64,000 nt of DNA, taken from the NCBI GenBank assembly GCA_016936555.1, contig JAFGXR010000037.1, forward strand, positions 1-64,000. The letters run 5' to 3'. The translations under genes were made by a program, and so were the position numbers. The DNA is from Spirochaetales bacterium. Lineage in GTDB: Bacteria; Spirochaetota; Spirochaetia; DSM-2461. Of the stretch, positions 6,599 to 51,822 are shown piece after piece. Within the stretch, counting starts at the first letter, position 1. Every line of letters starts with the position of its first letter. Under the pieces are notes generated by a model. The model saw only the letters and a list, made by a program, of their open reading frames with translations. It had not been told where the DNA came from and made no database searches.

Positions 6599-7132
6599 CT
6601 AGAAAATATTGTTCCACTGCCAGCCTATGCCGAAGCGCGGATACTTGTAGGCTCCTATGACATAAGTCACATCGACATAAAATCCGCCCAGTGATCCTTT
6701 TGCGCCGACGCTGAAACCACCGAGACTGAAAACGGGAAATGTGGACAGGTAGTATCCCAGGTGCGGTTCGATAAACGTCGTTTTGCCGCCTATTCTGAAT
6801 ACCGCATTAATGGGCATGTCAAAAACTACAGCCTTTGTACCGCCGTCATCTGTGGAGGTGGATAATGCCGTAAAGCCGAGTTCCAGACCTGTACTGAAAG
6901 TCTCGTTGATTCTGTATCGTCCTGTAACGGTAACTCCGGCTCTTAAAAGGAAGAGAGGAGAGAGGATGTCGACAAAATCGTAACCTGTTCCCGACAGGTA
7001 TCCCGTTGAAACGACTGCTCCGACATCCAGGCCTATGGGCCGCAGGTTTTGTTCCGCTTCCTGTGCTGATAGATTAAGCACGGGCAAAGCAAGCATAACA
7101 ATCAGAAACGTAAAAAACAGTTTTCTTTTCAT
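6599..7132 (-). CDS. Small secreted beta-barrel-like protein, probably outer membrane
   Basis: 177 residues from the ATG at 7132, preceded by AAGGAG. The N-terminus MKRKLFFTFLIVMLALPVLNLSAQ is a Sec signal peptide with cleavage after SAQ. The mature part alternates polar and hydrophobic residues, has many Gly/Tyr/Phe and ends in an aromatic (WQWNNIF), typical of a small outer-membrane beta barrel. I do not recognise a specific family. The frame extends upstream to 7195 but that part overlaps the promoter. It is monocistronic, with its own promoter and strong terminator. Confidence 0.75.
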   Translation of the reverse strand: MKRKLFFTFLIVMLALPVLNLSAQEAEQNLRPIGLDVGAVVSTGYLSGTGYDFVDILSPLFLLRAGVTVTGRYRINETFSTGLELGFTALSTSTDDGGTKAVVFDMPINAVFRIGGKTTFIEPHLGYYLSTFPVFSLGGFSVGAKGSLGGFYVDVTYVIGAYKYPRFGIGWQWNNIF

Positions 7133-7166
7133 TTTGACTCCTTGTAAAAGATCTTCACTTTTTTGA

Positions 7167-7195
7167 ATTATAGGATATGGGATTATTAATATCAA
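7167..7195 (-). promoter_or_regulatory. Promoter of the outer-membrane-like gene
   Basis: Minus strand: -35 TTGATA (7195-7190), 17-bp spacer, -10 TATAAT (7172-7167). The start of transcription is near 7160, giving a ~28-nt leader with Shine-Dalgarno AAGGAG before ATG 7132. Confidence 0.75.
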
Positions 7196-7213
7196 CTCTG
7201 TTAATTTTCGGAA

Positions 7214-7525
7214 TCAGATATCAAGGCCCATATTCAATCTCTCCATATCGGACAGATCATCGAGTGACCGCGGTTCCGTCCATACGAGGTTAAGAGAGAA
7301 CTTGTCCACAAGGGGATCCCGCCGCAATGTGCTTTCCACCATATTGAAGAGCACCGGTCCGTAGGGGCAGTCCGGCGTTGTCAATGTCATATCGACTGTC
7401 ACGTTGGCTCCGGCGATGATGACTTCGACGATCAGTCCCAGATCGACGATGCTCACTCCCAGATCGGGGTCTATAATAGGGCGGAGAATATCCAGAATAT
7501 ACTGTTTATCGAATTTGTTTTCCAT
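7214..7525 (-). CDS. DUF59/MIP18-family Fe-S maturation protein (SufT-like)
   Basis: 103 residues. The DUF59 core is clear: LDILRPIIDPDLGVSIVDLGLI near residues 12-33 and LTTPDCPYGPVLFNMVE near 63-79, with the family Cys. These proteins assist maturation of Fe-S proteins or cluster transfer. It is the last gene of the suf operon, 3 nt after sufU, which supports that role. It is a single-domain protein without an additional P-loop. Confidence 0.85.
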   Translation of the reverse strand: MENKFDKQYILDILRPIIDPDLGVSIVDLGLIVEVIIAGANVTVDMTLTTPDCPYGPVLFNMVESTLRRDPLVDKFSLNLVWTEPRSLDDLSDMERLNMGLDI

Positions 7526-7528
7526 TTT

Positions 7529-7981
7529 CTACTCCGTGGTCGCCGGCTCCGCTTCCTCTTTCAGAGCCGATTTCAAAGTGTGCCAGGCCAGAGAGGCGCA
7601 TTTTATTCTCATGGGGAACTGGGCGACCCCAGAAAGAGCTTCCAGTTTTCCCAGGGACTTGTCTCCTTCTTCCTCGTCCGGGTGGTATCCGGTGAGCATG
7701 ACATGGACCTTGTCGAAGACTTCCAGAGCCTCTTCTACAGTCCGGCCTTTGAGGTTTTCGGTCATCATCGAAGCCGAGGCCTGGGAGACGGCGCAGCCCG
7801 ATCCCTGAAAATTGATCTCCTGAATGATTTTTCCATCCACTTTCAGAAACACTTCCAGATGATCGCCGCAGAGCGGGTTGTCCCCTTCGGCACAATGGGT
7901 GGGATTTTCCATGGAACAGCAGTTCCTCGGGTTCCTGTAGTGGTCCAGTATCATTTCCTGGTATAATTCCTGATCTTTCAT
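7529..7981 (-). CDS. sufU: SufU Fe-S scaffold / sulfur-transfer protein
   Basis: 150 residues. It has the SufU/IscU-like Cys set: Cys38 in NPLCGD with Asp40, Cys63 in GSGCAVS, and Cys128 in RIKCASLAW. The insertion between the second and third Cys (about 20 residues longer than IscU, rich in Glu/Asp here) is the SufU hallmark; SufU proteins bind zinc and accept sulfur from SufS. Start overlaps the sufS stop by 4 nt, so the two are coupled. Confidence 0.92.
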   Translation of the reverse strand: MKDQELYQEMILDHYRNPRNCCSMENPTHCAEGDNPLCGDHLEVFLKVDGKIIQEINFQGSGCAVSQASASMMTENLKGRTVEEALEVFDKVHVMLTGYHPDEEEGDKSLGKLEALSGVAQFPMRIKCASLAWHTLKSALKEEAEPATTE

Positions 7982-9162
7982 AATTTGAATTTCTCCCTGA
8001 TTTCCGGCAGGGCTTCCGCCAGGAAGTCTATATCCTGCTTATTGTTATAGAGCCCCAGAGACAGCCTGGTCGCGGCCGGGACATTATAGTAATTCATAAG
8101 TGGCTGGGCGCAGTGATGTCCGGCCCGGACGGCGATGTTCTTCATGGCCAGTTCGTGGGCTATGTCGTGGGGATGGGCGTCTCCGAGAGTGAAGGTCAGG
8201 GCTCCGGACCTTTTGGCAGGAGATCCGATAATTTCAAGTCCGTCGATTTTTTCCAATCTGGCAAGAGCGTAATCCATCAGCTCCTCTTCATAGGCTTCCA
8301 CTTTCTTCATTCCTGTCCCTTCGAGGTAGCGGACCGCTTCGGCGAGGCCGATAGTTCCGGCGATATTGGGAGTTCCCGCTTCAAATCTGTGGGGTATTTC
8401 GTTCCAGGTCGTCTTCTCGAAGGTCACGCGGAGAATCATATCCCCGCCGCTCTGATAGGGTCTCATTCTCTCCAGTCGTTTCTTTTTTCCGTAGAGAACG
8501 CCGATTCCCGTCGGGCCGTACATTTTGTGTCCCGAGAACGCGTAGAAGTCGGCATCGAGATCTTTCACATCGACAGGCGTCCGCCCGACCGCCTGGGCTC
8601 CGTCTATCAGCACGGGTATGCCCCTGTCGTGTGCCTCGGCTATGATCTCTTTCACGGGATTGACCGTTCCCAGAACATTGGAAATATGGGTCAGAGAGAG
8701 GAGTTTTGTTTTCTCCGTCATCATTCCGCGTAATGCTTTCCGGTCCAGATTCCCTTCCCGGTCGACGGGAATCACTTTCAACCGGGCGCCCGTTCTCTCG
8801 CAGAGAAGCTGCCAGGGAACGATATTGGCGTGGTGCTCCATGTGGGTTATGAGGATTTCATCTCCTTCTTTCATCAGCGGTTCGGCAAAGGAAAAAGCCG
8901 CGAGATTGATCGATTCCGTTGTGCCGCGGGTGAAAATCACTTCATCGCTATTCCCGTTGATAAAACGGGCCACTGTCTCCCTCGCGTCCTCGTAGGCGGC
9001 TGTGGCTTTCGCGCTGAGTTCATAGACTCCTCTGTGGACATTGGCATTTTCATTCCGGTAAAACCGGTCGATCCGCTCAATCACCTGATAGGGCTTCTGG
9101 GTCGTCGCGCCGCTGTCCAGATAAACGCCTTCGGCGAGAAGGGGGAAATCCTCCCTATTCAT
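7978..9162 (-). CDS. sufS: SufS-type cysteine desulfurase
   Basis: 394 residues, class V PLP aminotransferase fold, group II desulfurase. PLP lysine in FSGHKMYGPTGIG (about 225). Catalytic Cys in RAGHHCAQP (about 355) on the short loop typical of SufS, and the THMEHHANIVPWQ block near 107-119. It abstracts sulfur from L-cysteine and hands it to SufU. Full length, coupled at both ends (8-nt overlap with sufD, 4-nt overlap with sufU). Confidence 0.95.
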   Translation of the reverse strand: MNREDFPLLAEGVYLDSGATTQKPYQVIERIDRFYRNENANVHRGVYELSAKATAAYEDARETVARFINGNSDEVIFTRGTTESINLAAFSFAEPLMKEGDEILITHMEHHANIVPWQLLCERTGARLKVIPVDREGNLDRKALRGMMTEKTKLLSLTHISNVLGTVNPVKEIIAEAHDRGIPVLIDGAQAVGRTPVDVKDLDADFYAFSGHKMYGPTGIGVLYGKKKRLERMRPYQSGGDMILRVTFEKTTWNEIPHRFEAGTPNIAGTIGLAEAVRYLEGTGMKKVEAYEEELMDYALARLEKIDGLEIIGSPAKRSGALTFTLGDAHPHDIAHELAMKNIAVRAGHHCAQPLMNYYNVPAATRLSLGLYNNKQDIDFLAEALPEIREKFKL

Positions 9163-14440: not shown

Positions 14441-15961
14441 TTATTTTGCCCGGCCGGCATTCGCTTTGGTTCCACTGATCTTTCGAATAACCGCTTTAAA
14501 GACCGGTGTCAGAATCGTGAGGATCAGGAATATCATCAGACCGGCGGCTATGGGCTTCTGGAAAAAGATCAGGGGGCTGCCGTCCGATATGAGGAAAGAC
14601 CGCCTGAAATCCCGTTCCAGAGTGGGCGCCAGTACGAAAGCCAGGAGCAGGGGCGCTATGGGGTAGTTGTTTTTGCTCAGGTGGAAACCGGCGAAACCGG
14701 AGGCCAGCATGAGAAGAACGCCGTAGAGCGAGTTGCTCGCGCTGTAGGCTCCCATAATGCAGACAGTTGTAATAATAGGCACCATTATCCTGGTCGGCAC
14801 TTTCAGAATCCTGATCAGAAAAGGAATAATGGAAAGGGCGACCACAAGGGTGATCATATTGGCAACATAGAGTGAAGCTATGAGTCCCCAGGTAAACTCC
14901 GGTTCGTTCTGGAACAGAAGAGGACCGGGGCTCAGGCCGTACATCAGCAGTCCGCCGAGCAGGACCGCACCGGTTCCCGATCCGGGAATCCCGAGAGAGA
15001 GAAGAGGTGCGAATGCTCCGGCTGCCGCCGCGTTGTTGGCCGCTTCGCAGGAGGCCACGCCTTCTACGATTCCGGTCCCCATTTCTTCCTTGTTTTTCCC
15101 GACTTTCTTTTCCAGCATGTATCCGAGGAAAGAACCGGTCGTTGCGCCGGCCCCGGGAAGTATGCCGATGATAGTTCCCAGAAATGAGGACCGAATGGCC
15201 GGGGGCAGAATCCTCTTGAATTCCTCTTTGGATAAAATACTGTCTTTGATGGTCAGTTTCTGATCTACCGAATCGTTGCTGTCCCGGGGCTCCATCATCT
15301 GGAGGACCTGGGAAAAGCCGAACATGCCGATTACCAGAGGAATAAAGGATATCCCGCCGAGCAGGTGAAGGGAGCCGAAACTGAAGCGGGGAGTCCCCAC
15401 GACGATATCGAATCCCACGGTGGCCAGAACGATTCCTATCATGGTCGAAACCAGTCCTTTGGTGGGGTTGTCGCCGACGAGCCAGCTCAGAGAGGTCATG
15501 GCGACCATGAGGAGCGCGGCCATTTCAACCGGTCCGAATTTGAGTCCCAGTCTTGCCAGGGCCGGACCGGAAATGGTCAGAATGATGATTCCGATGGTTC
15601 CGCCGATAAATGATGACAGATTGGCTGTGAAAAGCGCTTTACCCGGTTTTCCCTTCAGCGCCATGGGATGTCCGTCCAGCGCTGTCATAACGGCGGGGCT
15701 GTCTCCGGGGATATTGATTAGAATGGAGCTGAAGGATCCGCCGTACATATTGGCATAATAAATAGCAGACAGCATGATAATTCCCGTTACGGGATTGAAT
15801 TTGAAGGTCAGCGGCAGAAGGAGGGCCACTCCGGCGAGTGAACCGATACCGGGCATGGCTCCGACGATGATTCCCAGAAGGGCTCCGATGGCTGCCGCCA
15901 TGAAATTCTGTATGGTCAGGGCTGTTTGAAATCCCTGCATCAATAATAAAAAAGTTTCCAT
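14441..15961 (-). CDS. tctA: Tripartite tricarboxylate transporter large membrane subunit (TctA family)
   Basis: 506 residues, about 12 membrane helices. Two TctA signature repeats are visible: ALLGIIVGAMPGIGSLAGVALLLP near 27-50 and FLGTIIGILPGAGATTGSFLGY near 260-280. Also SCEAANNAAAAGAFAPLLSLGIPGSG near 305-330. It is the channel/carrier subunit of a secondary, cation-coupled uptake system. It starts 3 nt after the tctB stop. Confidence 0.95.
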   Translation of the reverse strand: METFLLLMQGFQTALTIQNFMAAAIGALLGIIVGAMPGIGSLAGVALLLPLTFKFNPVTGIIMLSAIYYANMYGGSFSSILINIPGDSPAVMTALDGHPMALKGKPGKALFTANLSSFIGGTIGIIILTISGPALARLGLKFGPVEMAALLMVAMTSLSWLVGDNPTKGLVSTMIGIVLATVGFDIVVGTPRFSFGSLHLLGGISFIPLVIGMFGFSQVLQMMEPRDSNDSVDQKLTIKDSILSKEEFKRILPPAIRSSFLGTIIGILPGAGATTGSFLGYMLEKKVGKNKEEMGTGIVEGVASCEAANNAAAAGAFAPLLSLGIPGSGTGAVLLGGLLMYGLSPGPLLFQNEPEFTWGLIASLYVANMITLVVALSIIPFLIRILKVPTRIMVPIITTVCIMGAYSASNSLYGVLLMLASGFAGFHLSKNNYPIAPLLLAFVLAPTLERDFRRSFLISDGSPLIFFQKPIAAGLMIFLILTILTPVFKAVIRKISGTKANAGRAK

Positions 15962-15964
15962 TTT

Positions 15965-16420
15965 CTATCCTAATATAAGGTCGAATACATATCCTGCAGG
16001 GAAAGGGACCTGCAGCCACATAACGAAAATGCCGTAGCAGGCGGCGGTGGTTATAACTGATATGGAAAGAGCTAACTTCCAGTTGTACTTTTCATAGAGC
16101 TTCAGCCAGCCCAGAATATAGAGCAGAAGCGCCGGAAAAAACCCTATGACCAGAGCGGCCAGTACGGTGGCGATCGCGGCCAGAAGGGGATGATAACTGG
16201 CTTTGAAATATTCAGGTGCTTCTCTTTTTAATCCGTCGACAAAGGCTATTATGCTGATTCCGGCCAGGATAATGCCTACAATAGAGGGAAAAAAACCGCT
16301 GGCAGGTCCGTTGTTGCCCCACCATCCGTAACTCTTCAGTCCGTAAATGAACCAGAGAGCACCGACAGCAAAGGTGAGAACAGGAATGACAGCCCTTGTA
16401 TTTATTTTTAACGTCTTCAT
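15965..16420 (-). CDS. tctB: Tripartite tricarboxylate transporter small membrane subunit (TctB family)
   Basis: About 151 residues from ATG 16420 (GAGGAG upstream; the longer frame to 16462 has no Shine-Dalgarno). Four membrane helices, with the second pair separated by a cytoplasmic loop (DGLKREAPEYFKASYH), as expected for TctB. First gene of the tctBAC operon, transcribed from the promoter at 16505-16533 and flanked by two GntR sites. Confidence 0.88.
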   Translation of the reverse strand: MKTLKINTRAVIPVLTFAVGALWFIYGLKSYGWWGNNGPASGFFPSIVGIILAGISIIAFVDGLKREAPEYFKASYHPLLAAIATVLAALVIGFFPALLLYILGWLKLYEKYNWKLALSISVITTAACYGIFVMWLQVPFPAGYVFDLILG

Positions 16421-45781: not shown

Positions 45782-47602
45782 ATGCAAGCAATAATATTAG
45801 CCGCCGGAATGGGCAAAAGACTGAAGGGGCTCACCGCAGACAATACCAAATGCATGGTTAAGGTCAACGGAATTCCCATGATAGACCGAATGCTGGGAAG
45901 TCTGGAAAGACTCGAACTGGATCGTATCGTAATTGTTGTCGGTTATTGTGCCCGGGGCCTGATAAACCATATATCCGCACTTGATTTGAAGACTCCGGTT
46001 GTATATGTAGAAAATGAGATTTATGACAAAACCAACAATATCTATTCTCTCTATCTGGCTAAGGAGCATCTTCTGGCTGATGATACCATCCTACTCGAAT
46101 CGGATCTGATCTTCGAAGATGCTGTTCTCGAAAAAATACTGAATAATCCCTACTCAAGTCTGGCTCTTGTGGCTAAATACGAGAGCTGGATGGACGGTAC
46201 ATGCCTCACTGTAGATGATGATGACAATATCGTGTCCTTCCATAGCGGCGAGGATTTCCGGTTCAAGGATACAGGGCATTATTTTAAAACGGTTAATATT
46301 TACAAGTTCTCGAGAGAGTTCTCAACGTCTCATTACGTACCTTTTCTCAAGGCTTATAGCACAGCCCTCGGACAGAACGAATACTATGAACAGGTCCTTA
46401 AGGTCATTACGCTTCTTAAAAAGCCTGAAATTAAAGCTGTCCGGCTCGAAGAGGAAAAGTGGTATGAAATCGACAATGCCCAGGATCTGGATATTGCCGA
46501 GTCCATCTTTGCCGATACCCCCTCGGATAAACTGGCGAAGATGATGCGCCGTTACGGAGGTTACTGGCGCTATCCCCGACTCGCCGATTTCTGCTATCTT
46601 GTGAACCCCTATTTCCCCCCTGCGAAAATGGTCGATGAAATGCAGAGCAATTTTCACAGGCTTATGGAGAATTATCCTTCCGGTCAGAATGTCAACAGCC
46701 TGCTCGCAGCTGATTATTTCGGTGTTGATGAAGAAACCATCGTCGTCGGGAATGGAGCGGCCGAGCTGATCAAATCCCTGATGGAAAAGGAAGGGAGGGG
46801 AAAAACAGGTATTGTCTTCCCCACTTTTGAAGAGTATCCCAACAGATTGCCGGAGAGCGGGATCGTCCCTTATAAACCGGATAACAGAGATTTTACCTAT
46901 ACCGCTTCGGATCTGATCGCTTTTTATGATGGAAAAGATATCAGCTCCCTGCTCCTGATCAATCCTGACAATCCGACCGGAAATTTTATAGCGAGAGGGG
47001 AGATGGAACCGCTTCTGGACTGGTGTTCCGCCGGGAATATTCAGCTTATAGTCGATGAGTCGTTTCTCGATTTTGCCGAGGGAGCCATTGAGGAAAACTC
47101 GCTTCTTAAAACGGAACTCCTGGACAAACACAGGAATCTGGTCATTGTAAAAAGCATTTCCAAATCCTACGGTGTTCCGGGATTCCGGCTCGGGATTCTG
47201 GCCTCGGGAGATCGGCGGCTGATTGAGGAAATAAAAAAAGATGTGAGTATCTGGAATATCAACTCCTACGGGGAGTTTTTCATGCAGATAATCGGGAAAT
47301 ACAAGAGGGATTATGCCGCGGCGGCTCTTTATTTTAAAGAAGTCAGGGCTGGTTTTTTCGAAAGCCTGGGATCGATACCGGGAATCCGGCCCATAGCTTC
47401 ACAGGCCAATTATATCATGCTTGAGCTCACCGGCGGAATGAAAGCCGGGAAACTGGCGGAAGAACTGTTATGGAATCACAATCTTCTGATTAAGGATCTG
47501 ACTTCAAAAGTCGGCGGCAGAGGCGAGTATATCCGGATTGCCGTGAAGAGTGAGGAAGAAAACCGGAGACTGATCGAAGGGTTGGAGGATGTCCTGAAAT
47601 AA
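45782..47602 (+). CDS. PntC-like nucleotidyltransferase fused to a PLP aminotransferase
   Basis: About 606 residues from ATG 45782 (the longer frame to 45668 is AT-rich noncoding). N-terminal (1-240) LicC/PntC-type CTP transferase: AIILAAGMGKRLKGLTADNTKCMVKVNG near 3-30, with the acidic LLESDLIF near 102. The C-terminal part (about 255-600) is a fold-type-I aminotransferase resembling HisC/CobD: LLINPDNPTGNF near 393, KSISKSYGVPGFRLG near 457-471 with the PLP Lys. The same domain order is known from Treponema PntC, which makes CMP-aminoethylphosphonate. No phosphonate-forming PepM gene is in the window. It probably activates a choline-, ethanolamine- or aminoethylphosphonate-like headgroup for surface attachment. 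Confidence 0.82.
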   Translation: MQAIILAAGMGKRLKGLTADNTKCMVKVNGIPMIDRMLGSLERLELDRIVIVVGYCARGLINHISALDLKTPVVYVENEIYDKTNNIYSLYLAKEHLLADDTILLESDLIFEDAVLEKILNNPYSSLALVAKYESWMDGTCLTVDDDDNIVSFHSGEDFRFKDTGHYFKTVNIYKFSREFSTSHYVPFLKAYSTALGQNEYYEQVLKVITLLKKPEIKAVRLEEEKWYEIDNAQDLDIAESIFADTPSDKLAKMMRRYGGYWRYPRLADFCYLVNPYFPPAKMVDEMQSNFHRLMENYPSGQNVNSLLAADYFGVDEETIVVGNGAAELIKSLMEKEGRGKTGIVFPTFEEYPNRLPESGIVPYKPDNRDFTYTASDLIAFYDGKDISSLLLINPDNPTGNFIARGEMEPLLDWCSAGNIQLIVDESFLDFAEGAIEENSLLKTELLDKHRNLVIVKSISKSYGVPGFRLGILASGDRRLIEEIKKDVSIWNINSYGEFFMQIIGKYKRDYAAAALYFKEVRAGFFESLGSIPGIRPIASQANYIMLELTGGMKAGKLAEELLWNHNLLIKDLTSKVGGRGEYIRIAVKSEEENRRLIEGLEDVLK

Positions 47603-47632
47603 GGAGAGGCTGACTGTTTCCGGTCAGTCTCC
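47603..47632. terminator. Stem-loop between convergent genes
   Basis: GGAGA/TCTCC plus CTGAC/GTCAG arms (47603-47614 with 47623-47632), a 2-nt bulge and an 8-nt loop. It lies right after the PntC-like stop and includes the stop codon of the opposite gene (47624). Followed on the plus strand by ACTCTTTT. A probable terminator for the rightward gene. Confidence 0.5.
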
Positions 47633-50548
47633 CACTCTTTTCCAGTTGTTTATATCATAGAAATCCCCGTTGACCTGGAATACTCCGAAAGATTCATATT
47701 CCGGACCGGTTTGCTCCTTCGGGTTCCAGGCATGGGTCAATTGTCCCTCAACCACCCGTTTCGAATCCAGACTGTCTATCCAGGCTGACGCATCGGGATT
47801 AAAGGCTAACTGTGCCGTATCGGATGATGACATATTCTGTTCTTTCCTTTTGAGGGAACCTCTTCCGTTAAAATCTTTAACCATAAGCATTGAATTGAAA
47901 GCTGTGTGGTTTACCTTATCCAGACCCAGCGCCGACAGTCTGTCCTTATTTTTAACCGGTGCCGAGTAATCGGCGGATCTGTAATTCCCGTGATCGGAGA
48001 CGATTATGATTTTGGTATTGTCATAGAGACCTTTCTCTTTCAGATCCTTAAACCAATCCGCGAGAATCTTCAGGCTCCATTCCGTACTGTAGTAGGCGTT
48101 GCGGCCGTCCCTGTTGTCGCTGACCGAAGGATCGGGAAACCGGTCGGAGAGGAGAATCCCTTCAGCCGAGAGCGCATGGGGATGATGAGCTAAAAGACTT
48201 GTAATAAAGTAGTATTGTCCTCTGATGTCTGAAGCTATTGTCATCTCAGGCAGTTTGGTCAGCATAAGCCATTCGGGAAGCAGCTGTTTGAAGTAGCTTT
48301 GATAGACAAGAGCTCCTGAAAGAGGTCTCCAGAATCCGTCTTCGTAGACAAAGGATTTGAGTCCGTAGGGAACAGCCCGGAAGAGGGCAATAGCTTTGAG
48401 CAGTTTTTTGTTGATCGCGGTTTCATCTCCGACAGCGGCATCCTCTATATACGATTGTTCAAGGTTTCCCACATAATCATCGATTGAATGAACCGTAACG
48501 TCCAATTCTTTAAGTGAGGGCCATTTGTCCAGTAAGAATCCGAATTCGAAAGGCTCGACCAATGTCACGTCGAGATCAGCAGCCATGGCCTTTTCTATCA
48601 TCACATTATAGGCCCGTCCGATCTCTTCTATAACCGAATGCTCAAGGCTGCGGCGGTTGACTTCGGCCGGAGCGAATTCCGGTCCACCCATGATGGCCGG
48701 CTGGCCTGCTACCGTATTGGTGCCGACAGCCATGGTGTTGGGAAACCATGTAAACCCGTCAAAATCCTCTTCCAGCTCGGGAAAATCTTCCAGCAGTTCG
48801 AAAAGGTAACCTCCCGTCATCATATCCATCATAAAGACGACGACATTCTGTTCGCTTTCCGATAGAGGTACGGTCAGTTCCAGTTCCCCCGATGATAAAT
48901 CTGTAGCTGATCCCTTTTTGTTTTCATAGACCGGCGTTTTTGAGGCGGCCATTGCATGAAAGCCCTGTCCGATCAGAAGAATATTGAGACAGAGAAGCAT
49001 GGCGAATATCCCTTTTCTCCACCGTTCGGCGGCGGCTCTCATTATGGAAAAAAGAACTACAATGAGAGAAAAGTCCGCTATGTATGTAATTGCGTCACCC
49101 TGCAGAATTTCACTTTTAGACAAACTGAAACCGGTCAGAAACCCGAAATCGAAGGGGATGACGAATGCGTAGATAAAGACTCCGGAAGCGGCCGCTGTCA
49201 GGACCACCCAGGGAATAATACGCCAGCGGCCCGGTGTCAGGAGAGATAACACCGTTCCGCCTGCCACTATGATAAAGAAAGGGAGGAGATTTTCCATTAA
49301 CATCTCACCGGCGCTGAAACTGAATTGGCCGGGCAGAGAACTGTAAACCATCGCGGGAATCCAGAGCAGCCATGCGCCGGCAATAAGAATCAGGGAGAGA
49401 GTCATTTCCTCCCAACCGGATAAGGCTCCCTTCTTCTGAAAGGAGAACCCGTGACCCAGTTTTTTCGATTTCCATATGACAGACCGATAAATAAAGGGAA
49501 AGGTTAAAAGCAGTCCCAATCCCGTCTGGACTGTGAAAAGAGCTATCTGCCGCTTGAATACTCCGGCTGACGAGAGCTTTTCCAATCCGGTGCTTATATA
49601 GCCGGGAATGAAATTCAGACCCGAGACAGCCTGATAAATCAGGAAGATGAATAGTGCAGCGGCAACGGCCAGACGTCTTTTTCTTCCCCTACCTTTAGAG
49701 AAAACAAGTAAGAGCAGATGTATCACTTCCTGGAGGAAGAGAAGAATCATAACGACCGCGGGTAGTATTATTTTGGATCTGTGCGCGACAGCGGGGTAAA
49801 AGAGGCTGACAAAACTCAGATAGAATGCAAAGAGGGGTATGCAGTAGTACGCCCAGATCCCGATCAGGGGGAATATCTTTTTCATCCTGTTCCGGTCCGT
49901 TCCGTTAATATATGACGGCACTTCAGGAATCTGTTTGATCAGGGCGAATAGGTTGTTGGCGGTCCAGTAGAGAACAAGGCCGGCGGGAGACCGGTAGAGC
50001 AGTATCAGGAAAACGCCGGCCATAATCCAGAGGGGGATTCTTTCCGAAGTCTCCTTTGTATAAAGAAAAGCAGAAATGAGATTTAATCCTGTCATGACCA
50101 GCGGGAGAATATTTACGGGGATACCGGCCAGAATCAGCGAGCCGTCGGGAAGACTGAGGTTCTCGATAAACCAGAACGATACGCCGTTGAGCGCGCTGTA
50201 ATGGGACAGCATATGATAAGCCGCCAGGAAGAAGGGTATCTGTATCAGCAGGCCCAGCGACAGAATAACTGATTCGAGAGGCTTGTAATTATGTCTTCTG
50301 TGAACGGCATTTGTATAGAAATAACGTTCTCTTCCCCGGTATGCCCGTTTTATGGCTTCCAGCTCTTTCTTCATGGGAGCCTGTTCCATGGCTTTTTTCT
50401 TCTTCCACTTTTCCAGAGGAAGATAGACCGGCAGAAGAATGAGATTTACCATGACACTGAGAGCCAGTAGCGAGAGACCGTAATTCCCGGTTATTCCATA
50501 GGCTCCCGAGAAGAGAAAGGACAGAAAATTTTCCAGAGGCTTCAGCAT
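47624..50548 (-). CDS. YidC/Oxa1-like domain fused to a membrane phosphotransferase (alkaline-phosphatase fold)
   Basis: 974 residues. Residues about 1-215 look like the YidC/Oxa1 insertase core: GNYGLSLLALSVMVNLILLP near 22-41, a charged cytoplasmic hairpin rich in Lys and Glu, and GLVLYWTANNLFALIKQ near 190-206. Further membrane helices fill about 225-535. The C-terminal ~420 residues are of the EptA/LtaS/sulfatase type: metal Asp in VVFMMDMMTGG (about 572), VGTNTVAGQPAIMGG (about 607-620) with the likely nucleophile Thr as in EptA's GTATAxSxP, and IIIVSDHGNYRSADY (about 847-861). It probably transfers a phospho-headgroup outside the membrane. Coupled to the CDP-glycerol-transferase-like gene by an overlap. 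Confidence 0.75.
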   Translation of the reverse strand: MLKPLENFLSFLFSGAYGITGNYGLSLLALSVMVNLILLPVYLPLEKWKKKKAMEQAPMKKELEAIKRAYRGRERYFYTNAVHRRHNYKPLESVILSLGLLIQIPFFLAAYHMLSHYSALNGVSFWFIENLSLPDGSLILAGIPVNILPLVMTGLNLISAFLYTKETSERIPLWIMAGVFLILLYRSPAGLVLYWTANNLFALIKQIPEVPSYINGTDRNRMKKIFPLIGIWAYYCIPLFAFYLSFVSLFYPAVAHRSKIILPAVVMILLFLQEVIHLLLLVFSKGRGRKRRLAVAAALFIFLIYQAVSGLNFIPGYISTGLEKLSSAGVFKRQIALFTVQTGLGLLLTFPFIYRSVIWKSKKLGHGFSFQKKGALSGWEEMTLSLILIAGAWLLWIPAMVYSSLPGQFSFSAGEMLMENLLPFFIIVAGGTVLSLLTPGRWRIIPWVVLTAAASGVFIYAFVIPFDFGFLTGFSLSKSEILQGDAITYIADFSLIVVLFSIMRAAAERWRKGIFAMLLCLNILLIGQGFHAMAASKTPVYENKKGSATDLSSGELELTVPLSESEQNVVVFMMDMMTGGYLFELLEDFPELEEDFDGFTWFPNTMAVGTNTVAGQPAIMGGPEFAPAEVNRRSLEHSVIEEIGRAYNVMIEKAMAADLDVTLVEPFEFGFLLDKWPSLKELDVTVHSIDDYVGNLEQSYIEDAAVGDETAINKKLLKAIALFRAVPYGLKSFVYEDGFWRPLSGALVYQSYFKQLLPEWLMLTKLPEMTIASDIRGQYYFITSLLAHHPHALSAEGILLSDRFPDPSVSDNRDGRNAYYSTEWSLKILADWFKDLKEKGLYDNTKIIIVSDHGNYRSADYSAPVKNKDRLSALGLDKVNHTAFNSMLMVKDFNGRGSLKRKEQNMSSSDTAQLAFNPDASAWIDSLDSKRVVEGQLTHAWNPKEQTGPEYESFGVFQVNGDFYDINNWKRVGD

Positions 50549-51822
50549 TTCAGTTCCTCCGCGATGTCGAGCAGCTGTGCTGCCGCTGTTTCTCCGGCAT
50601 GGCCGAAATTGTACAGGGCTTCCCGGCGGATTTTTTCAATTTCACCTTTTCGGGGATTGTGGAGAAAGTCCCTGACGATGGAAGGGAGATGCGGAATATC
50701 ATCTTCGCTTATGGTCTTTCCCGCAGCCCGGCAAAGCGTTTTATCCCACATTTCATGGTCGAGATCCCAGGCTTCCATCCCGTCTCTGTTGAGGTCCGTA
50801 TCCATCAGTATGACCGGTTTCTCATAGAGGAACAGGTAGTCGTATATAACACCGGACAGATCGCTGATCATCAGACTGGATTCCCCCATGCTCTGTGATC
50901 CCGAAGGTCTGTCATCGAGAGCGAAGTTCTCATTATCTTTGAACTCATCCATAACCTCTTTCACCAGTTCGGGAAAGGATACGAAACTCTGGGGGTGGGG
51001 TCTGAAAATGACTTTGTAGTCATCGCTCAGAAGAGATTTGAAGAAATCTACGCCGAAGCGGTTGAGGATGGAATAGGGCTGCCAGGTCGGAGCCACCAGG
51101 ATGCTCGGTCTGCGGCCCGAACCGGGGGACACTGTCTCTGTTTCCCCCATCATGATATCGTAATAGGTCAATCCGGTTTCAAGCAGTTTTTTCGGTGCTG
51201 TGCCTCTCTTCTTTTCGGTTTCCCTGATGCTTTTGATCTGATAGGGTCCGCTGCATAAAACCGAATCGAAATAATCAAAGGCAAACTGCCGGTATGTATG
51301 GGTATCGGTCGGCGAATGGAGAATATGGGCGTAATGCCTGACATTCTTCGATCTCTTGAAGGTGAAAATATCGAGCTGGGGAGTTGTCGTTACGACAACC
51401 GGAGCCTTGAGCTGGTTCATAAATGCCAGAGCGCTGTTCATGCTCCCCAGCGCTTTGACTTCCAGAAAAGGAGAATTGTATGACAGAGCGGCATCAGCCG
51501 GATCAGCTGTAACATATGCGGATTTTATCTCCCTTTTTTCCAGTGCTTTTATGACGGGTAGGTATACATTCCAGTACTGTTTTCCTTCTGAGAAGAAAAC
51601 GATATCCGTTTTATCGAAGGATGTCTGAGTGGAAAATCCCCGGCCGGCCATCATATTTTTAAAGCGGTAGAAAAGCCCTGCAACGGAATAAAACAGAGTC
51701 GCGGCCAGGGCGAATAAAACATAAAGGATGGTACTGCCCGACATCGGGTCGATATAGGCGAATAGAGGCGATGGAATAACCATCAGCAAAGCCAGGTTGA
51801 AAAATATTCGTGATCGTTTCAT
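50542..51822 (-). CDS. CDP-glycerol glycerophosphotransferase-like protein
   Basis: About 426 residues from ATG 51822. An N-terminal signal/anchor (RIFFNLALLMVIPSPLFAYI) and a second helix (STILYVLFALAATLFYSVAGLFY) precede the soluble domain. The C-terminal region is TagB/TagF-like: SILVAPTWQPYSILNRFG near 238-255, VIFRPHPQSF near 270-279, and SLMISDLSGVIYDYLFLYEKPVI near 315-337. The family transfers glycerol-phosphate from CDP-glycerol onto lipid-linked or polymer acceptors. Its pairing with a PntC-like CTP transferase and an EptA/LtaS-like enzyme suggests phosphodiester decoration of a surface polymer. Confidence 0.82.
   Translation of the reverse strand: MKRSRIFFNLALLMVIPSPLFAYIDPMSGSTILYVLFALAATLFYSVAGLFYRFKNMMAGRGFSTQTSFDKTDIVFFSEGKQYWNVYLPVIKALEKREIKSAYVTADPADAALSYNSPFLEVKALGSMNSALAFMNQLKAPVVVTTTPQLDIFTFKRSKNVRHYAHILHSPTDTHTYRQFAFDYFDSVLCSGPYQIKSIRETEKKRGTAPKKLLETGLTYYDIMMGETETVSPGSGRRPSILVAPTWQPYSILNRFGVDFFKSLLSDDYKVIFRPHPQSFVSFPELVKEVMDEFKDNENFALDDRPSGSQSMGESSLMISDLSGVIYDYLFLYEKPVILMDTDLNRDGMEAWDLDHEMWDKTLCRAAGKTISEDDIPHLPSIVRDFLHNPRKGEIEKIRREALYNFGHAGETAAAQLLDIAEELKC

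Follow-up and report, generated by a model that had tools for sequence, protein, structure and literature searches.

Three genes at the locus

The genes described here lie within a 64,000-nucleotide stretch (the window) of contig JAFGXR010000037.1 of a Spirochaetales bacterium (assembly GCA_016936555.1), and are considered as a candidate system for decorating the cell surface with headgroups. Positions 45782-51822 of the window hold three intact open reading frames. The first of these (45782-47602, + strand, 606 aa) encodes a putative bifunctional headgroup activator, referred to as the fusion, which matches NTP_transf_3 (E-value 7.5e-12) and Aminotran_1_2 (2.1e-29). It is followed by YidC-AlkP (47624-50548, - strand, 974 aa), having a 60KD_IMP match at residues 23-207 (2.8e-21) and a weak Phosphodiest/Sulfatase match at its C-terminus, and by the TagF-like gene (50542-51822, - strand, 426 aa), whose product matches Glyphos_transf (PF04464; 3.6e-8) and has two N-terminal hydrophobic segments. 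The gene content and adjacency, as well as the domain and residue conservation discussed below, are direct observations.

On the - strand, the TagF-like gene runs at its 3' end into the first bases of the YidC-AlkP gene, and these two genes are read as one predicted operon, referred to as the pair. The fusion gene is convergent with the pair, the stop codons being 21 bp apart, and in this genome the fusion is a neighbour of the pair, not its operon partner. A terminator-like hairpin considered in the 21-bp gap looked weak and was dropped. In the sister locus of G012 (genomes and loci are labelled G and L, respectively) the same three genes are found in a different orientation, the activator being 68% identical, and an operon-like order with all genes on one strand is seen in G003, G025, G207, G293, G298, G333, G371, G374, G071 and G403. 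A search for plasmid-borne copies of the system found none.

The fusion and its predicted product

Residues 1-245 of the fusion resemble cytidine triphosphate (CTP):phosphoamine cytidylyltransferases (NTP_transf_3). The nearest solved structures are Tde-PntC (6pd1, 3.9e-14) and Spn-LicC (1jyk, 8.2e-14). The catalytic Arg15/Lys25 and the amine-contacting Glu104/Glu196 of Tde-PntC, as described by Rice et al. (PMC6697681), map to R13, K23, E106 and E203 of the fusion, where E203 is placed via the LicC alignment, the Tde-PntC alignment differing by one residue. Among 34 full-length fusions these residues are conserved in 33/34 (R13), 34/34 (K23), 34/34 (E106) and 33/34 (E203), and the LLESDLI motif is identical in the fusion and in Tde-PntC. 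Both amine positions are Glu in the fusion, and since LicC carries Asp at both, a substrate with a primary amine is more likely than choline. The 2-aminoethylphosphonate (AEP) and phosphoethanolamine molecules are nearly isosteric, and the pocket therefore cannot discriminate between them. One fusion, on a short contig of G006 without a TagF or YidC neighbour (L045 5852-7672), has altered catalytic positions (R13 to E, D108 to N and Y202/E203 to C/N), and is possibly decaying.

Residues ~250-606 form an L-serine-O-phosphate-decarboxylase-like pyridoxal phosphate (PLP) domain of class I/II. This half matches Aminotran_1_2 and is CobD-like, with no match to class V, the class of the AEP transaminases (AEPT). 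Its best curated model is the CobD model TIGR01140 (167.6 bits, cut-off 290.55), and the HisC model also scores below its cut-off (133.3 bits). Among solved structures the top match is 6oux (1.2e-48), which is titled 'SMUL_1544, a decarboxylase from Sulfurospirillum multivorans'. When a tree is built that also includes CobD, 3ftb and HisC-like proteins, 6oux groups in one clade with the fusions and their separate-gene homologues (support 100/99), apart from CobD and HisC. The fold comparison of the predicted fusion model (predicted local distance difference test score, pLDDT, 88.8) is topped by CobD and 6oux (Z 37.6-38.2), when compared with Z 33-36 for most HisC structures; 3ftb, which is annotated as HisC, ties with CobD and 6oux. 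SMUL_1544 is an L-serine-O-phosphate decarboxylase of norcobamide synthesis.

The separate-gene version, with a cytidylyltransferase, a serine-phosphate-decarboxylase-like PLP enzyme and a cytidine diphosphate (CDP)-alcohol phosphotransferase, is found in G001, G003, G020 and G023, and rows of these genes are seen at L052 14108-16795, L053 6103-8663, L054 8178-10772 and L056 7065-9656. The position beside the phosphotransferase fits CDP-ethanolamine synthesis, and these rows likely represent a CDP-ethanolamine (Kennedy-type) route in spirochaetes. Phosphoserine decarboxylation also has a precedent in surface-polymer synthesis, because the Campylobacter capsule receives ethanolamine phosphate that is made by Cj1436, a serine-phosphate decarboxylase (PMC12409886). 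As judged by these comparisons, CDP-ethanolamine is the likelier product of the fusion, which suggests a route from phosphoserine to CDP-ethanolamine in spirochaetes. The first-pass annotation had labelled the fusion PntC-like; this holds for the catalytic and amine-binding residues, and fails for the PLP domain, which groups with SMUL_1544 and not with class-V AEPT. The apt label should become 'phosphoserine-decarboxylase/cytidylyltransferase-like'.

The closest described counterpart is the PntC-AEPT of Treponema denticola (Tde1415; PMC6697681), in which an N-terminal NTP_transf_3 domain is likewise fused to a PLP enzyme making its amine substrate, and whose catalytic Arg/Lys and amine-binding Glu are shared with the fusion. 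In many genomes the same TagF-like and YidC-AlkP pair adjoins PntC-AEPT; the text of PMC6697681 names LicD-like and glycosyltransferase neighbours and does not name YidC, glycerophosphotransferase or alkaline phosphatase. These likenesses, including the LLESDLI motif, the rank of Tde-PntC among the solved cytidylyltransferases and the phosphonate genes beside the pair elsewhere, are what would be expected if the fusion activated AEP, whether imported or synthesised by the cell. This is nevertheless highly improbable for the window's genome, where the PLP domain is decarboxylase-like and where PepM is not found in the 95%-complete assembly (best PF13714 match 20 bits, cut-off 31.5), and the aminoethylphosphonate headgroup that had been proposed earlier is not retained.

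The TagF-like and YidC-AlkP proteins

The TagF-like protein scores 33.2 bits on PF04464 (gathering cut-off 22.1), its N-terminal membrane hairpin bears a YIDPxSGS motif, and its RPHP motif (H276) is invariant (8/8). It had been described as CDP-alcohol phosphotransferase-like, an assignment that is replaced here, as PF01066 is found neither in the three locus proteins nor elsewhere in the window's genome. The Glyphos_transf domain and the RPHP motif are shared with the TagF/Cps3D polymerases (PF04464), from which the protein differs by its short length, the YIDPxSGS hairpin, the YidC-AlkP partner and activators that are mostly of non-glycerol type. The window's genome has exactly one PF04464 member, the TagF-like gene of the window itself, and no LicD was found in it. 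Among the families examined, the neighbouring TagF-like protein is the only candidate user of the fusion product in this genome. In the window's genus (G000, G011, G012, G013) a canonical PgsA-type PF01066 match was not found, with zero PF01066 matches in G000 and G011 (99% complete), and in other genera of the family such a match is present, at 105-155 bits; a genus-level loss of the CDP-alcohol phosphatidyltransferases is possible.

The family of the TagF-like protein and the LtaS-like fold of its partner also bring to mind a teichoic-acid-like system, in which the TagF-like protein would use CDP-glycerol and the AlkP domain would act on glycerol phosphate as LtaS does, and TagD-like genes indeed adjoin the pair in L070, L082 and L113. 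In the window, the activator beside the pair belongs to the aminoalcohol type, and the best match to a glycerol-3-phosphate cytidylyltransferase (TagD) in the genome reaches 38.5 bits against a cut-off of 165.4, such that this explanation is very unlikely, and the glycerol-type headgroup that was initially considered is disfavoured. The Lic phosphocholine pathway (LicC cytidylyltransferase, LicD transferase) is similar in that a CDP-activated amino-alcohol phosphate is moved to a surface glycan, and LicD is found near some unlinked fusions. It differs in having Asp where the Glu of the fusion predicts a primary amine, and in using LicD, in place of which the TagF-like and YidC-AlkP proteins are found here.

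The YidC-AlkP protein consists of a YidC-derived membrane domain (residues 1-212), ~9 further transmembrane helices and an LtaS/PbgA-like domain of the alkaline phosphatase superfamily (residues ~560-974). The 60KD_IMP score is 76.6 bits (cut-off 35), and yidC_oxa1_cterm is barely above its cut-off. In the AlkP domain D575, T612, D852 and H853 are conserved in 72/72 aligned homologues and H788 in 71/72, their roles as Thr nucleophile and metal ligands being assigned by analogy. Foldseek matches of the predicted model (pLDDT 84.2) are led by LtaS (2w5r, E 4.5e-7) and also include PbgA, LtaP, MCR-1 and E. coli YidC. The VIA Z values of 18-20 to LtaS, LtaP and YejM are tied with those to sulfatases, and the fold does not separate transferase from hydrolase.

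This architecture of a multi-helix anchor and an external AlkP domain with a Thr nucleophile is shared with LtaS, PbgA and MCR/EptA, and by this likeness the donor would be a headgroup lipid. It differs from them in that the anchor of YidC-AlkP holds the YidC-derived domain and in that the headgroup probably comes from a dedicated CTP-activation route, not from bulk phospholipid. When compared with the YidC/Oxa1 insertases, the 60KD_IMP fold is preserved, and E. coli YidC is matched by sequence and structure, whereas at the position of the basic groove residue (Arg366 in E. coli YidC) 72/72 homologues have T/N/S/Q, the window protein having N. This position is Lys in nine genuine YidCs from the family, among them the separate one of the window's genome. 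Lipid scrambling in vitro by E. coli YidC has been described in a preprint (PMC10491306), and by analogy the YidC-derived domain of YidC-AlkP may flip lipids. The YidC and AlkP halves are split genes in G025, and apparently likewise in G323. In L044 the separate genes (6808-9027 and 15571-16251) lie ~6 kb apart, and here the YidC half remains within the TagF/fusion operon.

Association of the genes and the proposed scheme

Across 393 Spirochaetota genomes, the full-length fusion is found in 30 and the TagF-like protein in 103, the latter being present in 19/30 genomes with the fusion and in 84/363 others (Fisher p 9e-6, not corrected for relatedness). Thirteen of the 30 fusions lie within 5 kb of TagF-like/YidC-AlkP, against a chance expectation of ~0.6% each; twelve of these are linked to TagF-like and one to YidC-AlkP at a contig edge, and they span four GTDB families. 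In a separate collection of 69 loci, picked by YidC-AlkP, the TagF-like gene is at most three genes away on the same strand in 53, and an activator is at most six genes away in 43, several of the exceptions being short contigs. YidC-AlkP is present at 19/20 loci picked by TagF-like. The hosts of the pair include Treponema, Brachyspira, Sphaerochaetaceae, Bacteroidales, Lachnospiraceae, other Clostridia, one Verrucomicrobia and one Rhodospirillaceae genome. The set anticipated in the first-pass annotation, in which a CTP-dependent activator is joined by a CDP-headgroup transferase-like protein and a phosphotransferase acting outside the cytoplasm, is thus observed as a recurring gene association in relatives, with ~40% of the fusions linked to the pair rather than all being linked to other genes. 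At least four of the unlinked fusions (L168, L175, L189 and L192) have nearby a LicD-like gene, which likewise belongs to a family of CDP-headgroup transferases.

It is also conceivable that the fusion serves another purpose, such as the supply of a lipid headgroup, and that its place beside the pair in the window is incidental. The convergent arrangement, the 17/30 fusions that are not within 5 kb of the pair, and the separate-gene homologues found with CDP-alcohol phosphotransferases, that is, in probable lipid synthesis, agree with this. This explanation is nevertheless unlikely, given that the window's genome has neither PF01066 nor LicD, and that the three genes stay together in another orientation in G012 and as one operon in G003 and G025.

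The pair is also found beside other activators, whose substrates are assigned here from their families. In L073, L218, L224 and L229 it adjoins a PepM-CTP_transf_like fusion, Ppd and a cytidylyltransferase-AEPT fusion, where AEPT scores above the TIGR03301 cut-off, and the PepM of L043 is above that of TIGR02320. In L065, L077, L092, L119 and L223 the neighbours are PepM-CyTase, Ppd and Fe-ADH, as for hydroxyethylphosphonate (HEP). A HisC-like cytidylyltransferase-PLP fusion, which scores 230.9 bits (HisC cut-off 276.6) and possibly serves another amine headgroup such as serinol phosphate, adjoins the pair in L083 (9826-11859), L089, L106, L126, L225 and L227, and a lone cytidylyltransferase does so in L198. 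Elsewhere the pair would thus be fed by PepM/Ppd/PntC-AEPT (AEP), PepM-CyTase/Ppd/Fe-ADH (HEP-type), the HisC-like fusion or TagD-like proteins. Because all these activators yield a cytidine monophosphate- or CDP-linked headgroup and the TagF-like protein is the constant partner, the latter is their natural user.

On balance, the locus probably represents one variant of a modular system for tailoring cell-surface headgroups, of which the chemistry, substrate, acceptor, flipping and order of steps are inferred as follows. In the cytosol, the fusion would decarboxylate L-serine-O-phosphate to phosphoethanolamine and convert this with CTP into CDP-ethanolamine. At the inner face of the membrane, in which it is anchored, the TagF-like protein would then use CDP-ethanolamine to load ethanolamine phosphate onto an acceptor that is a lipid or is linked to one. 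In the third and least certain step, the YidC-derived domain may offer the polar headgroup lipid a groove for crossing the membrane, and the LtaS/PbgA-like domain may pass the headgroup, via Thr612, to an extracytoplasmic glycan or polymer.

Several points weigh against this scheme. The order of TagF-like (inside), YidC domain (crossing) and AlkP (outside) is chosen as the most economical one, and the AlkP domain, whose Sulfatase match is under the Pfam cut-off, could be a hydrolase rather than a transferase. The CobD score of the PLP half is below its cut-off, and 6oux is a long branch in the tree. The convergent genes are not co-transcribed in the window, more than half of the fusions are unlinked, 11 fusion-bearing genomes have no TagF-like match at the threshold used, and the neighbourhood of the two closest YidC-AlkP homologues (63%; G012 C24, G013) is seen without an activator. 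The absences in the window's genome, a 95%-complete draft, are not final.

More tentatively, a YidC-family insertase may have been turned into a lipid flippase within an LtaS-like transferase, forming with the TagF-like protein a general transfer module that takes different CTP-dependent activators (for phosphoethanolamine, AEP, HEP and others) in several phyla. This would suggest a further role of the YidC fold that is new, and the module would fill in the transfer half now lacking from bacterial phosphonate tailoring, in which the steps after nucleotidyl activation are described as 'enigmatic' by Rice et al. 2019 (PMC6697681). The recurrence of the pair beside PepM, Ppd and PntC-AEPT, as well as beside non-phosphonate activators, provides concrete candidates for these steps. 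In the open-licence literature, searches for YidC with an alkaline phosphatase or phosphoethanolamine transferase, for HEP exopolysaccharide clusters and for Treponema phosphonate with a CDP-glycerol glycerophosphotransferase returned nothing relevant, and the papers searched contained no description of the set, in agreement with the earlier remark that no described system of this kind was known.

A headgroup-lipid donor may also be absent, if the TagF-like protein acts directly on a cytosolic undecaprenyl-linked glycan that is exported by a Wzx-type flippase, with YidC-AlkP polymerising, moving or trimming the headgroup outside. Relatives are indeed found in glycan loci, where the pair of L047 adjoins a Bac_transf initiating transferase, L042 and L050 have Wzx/MurJ-like flippases, L044 and L050 have glycosyltransferases and L049 has a UDP-glucose dehydrogenase, and the LicD and TagF proteins of Gram-positive bacteria act on lipid-linked glycans. 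This alternative is considered rather unlikely, although of some weight, as the LtaS/MCR-type homologues use lipid donors and as several YidC-AlkP paralogues per single TagF-like protein fit a shared donor better. For 22 of the 52 TagF genes counted, a single TagF is found with two or three YidC-AlkP paralogues nearby, a pattern suggestive of one donor shared by several transferases that differ in their acceptors. In L073, L088 and L217, three or four YidC-AlkP paralogues are present with a single TagF-like gene.

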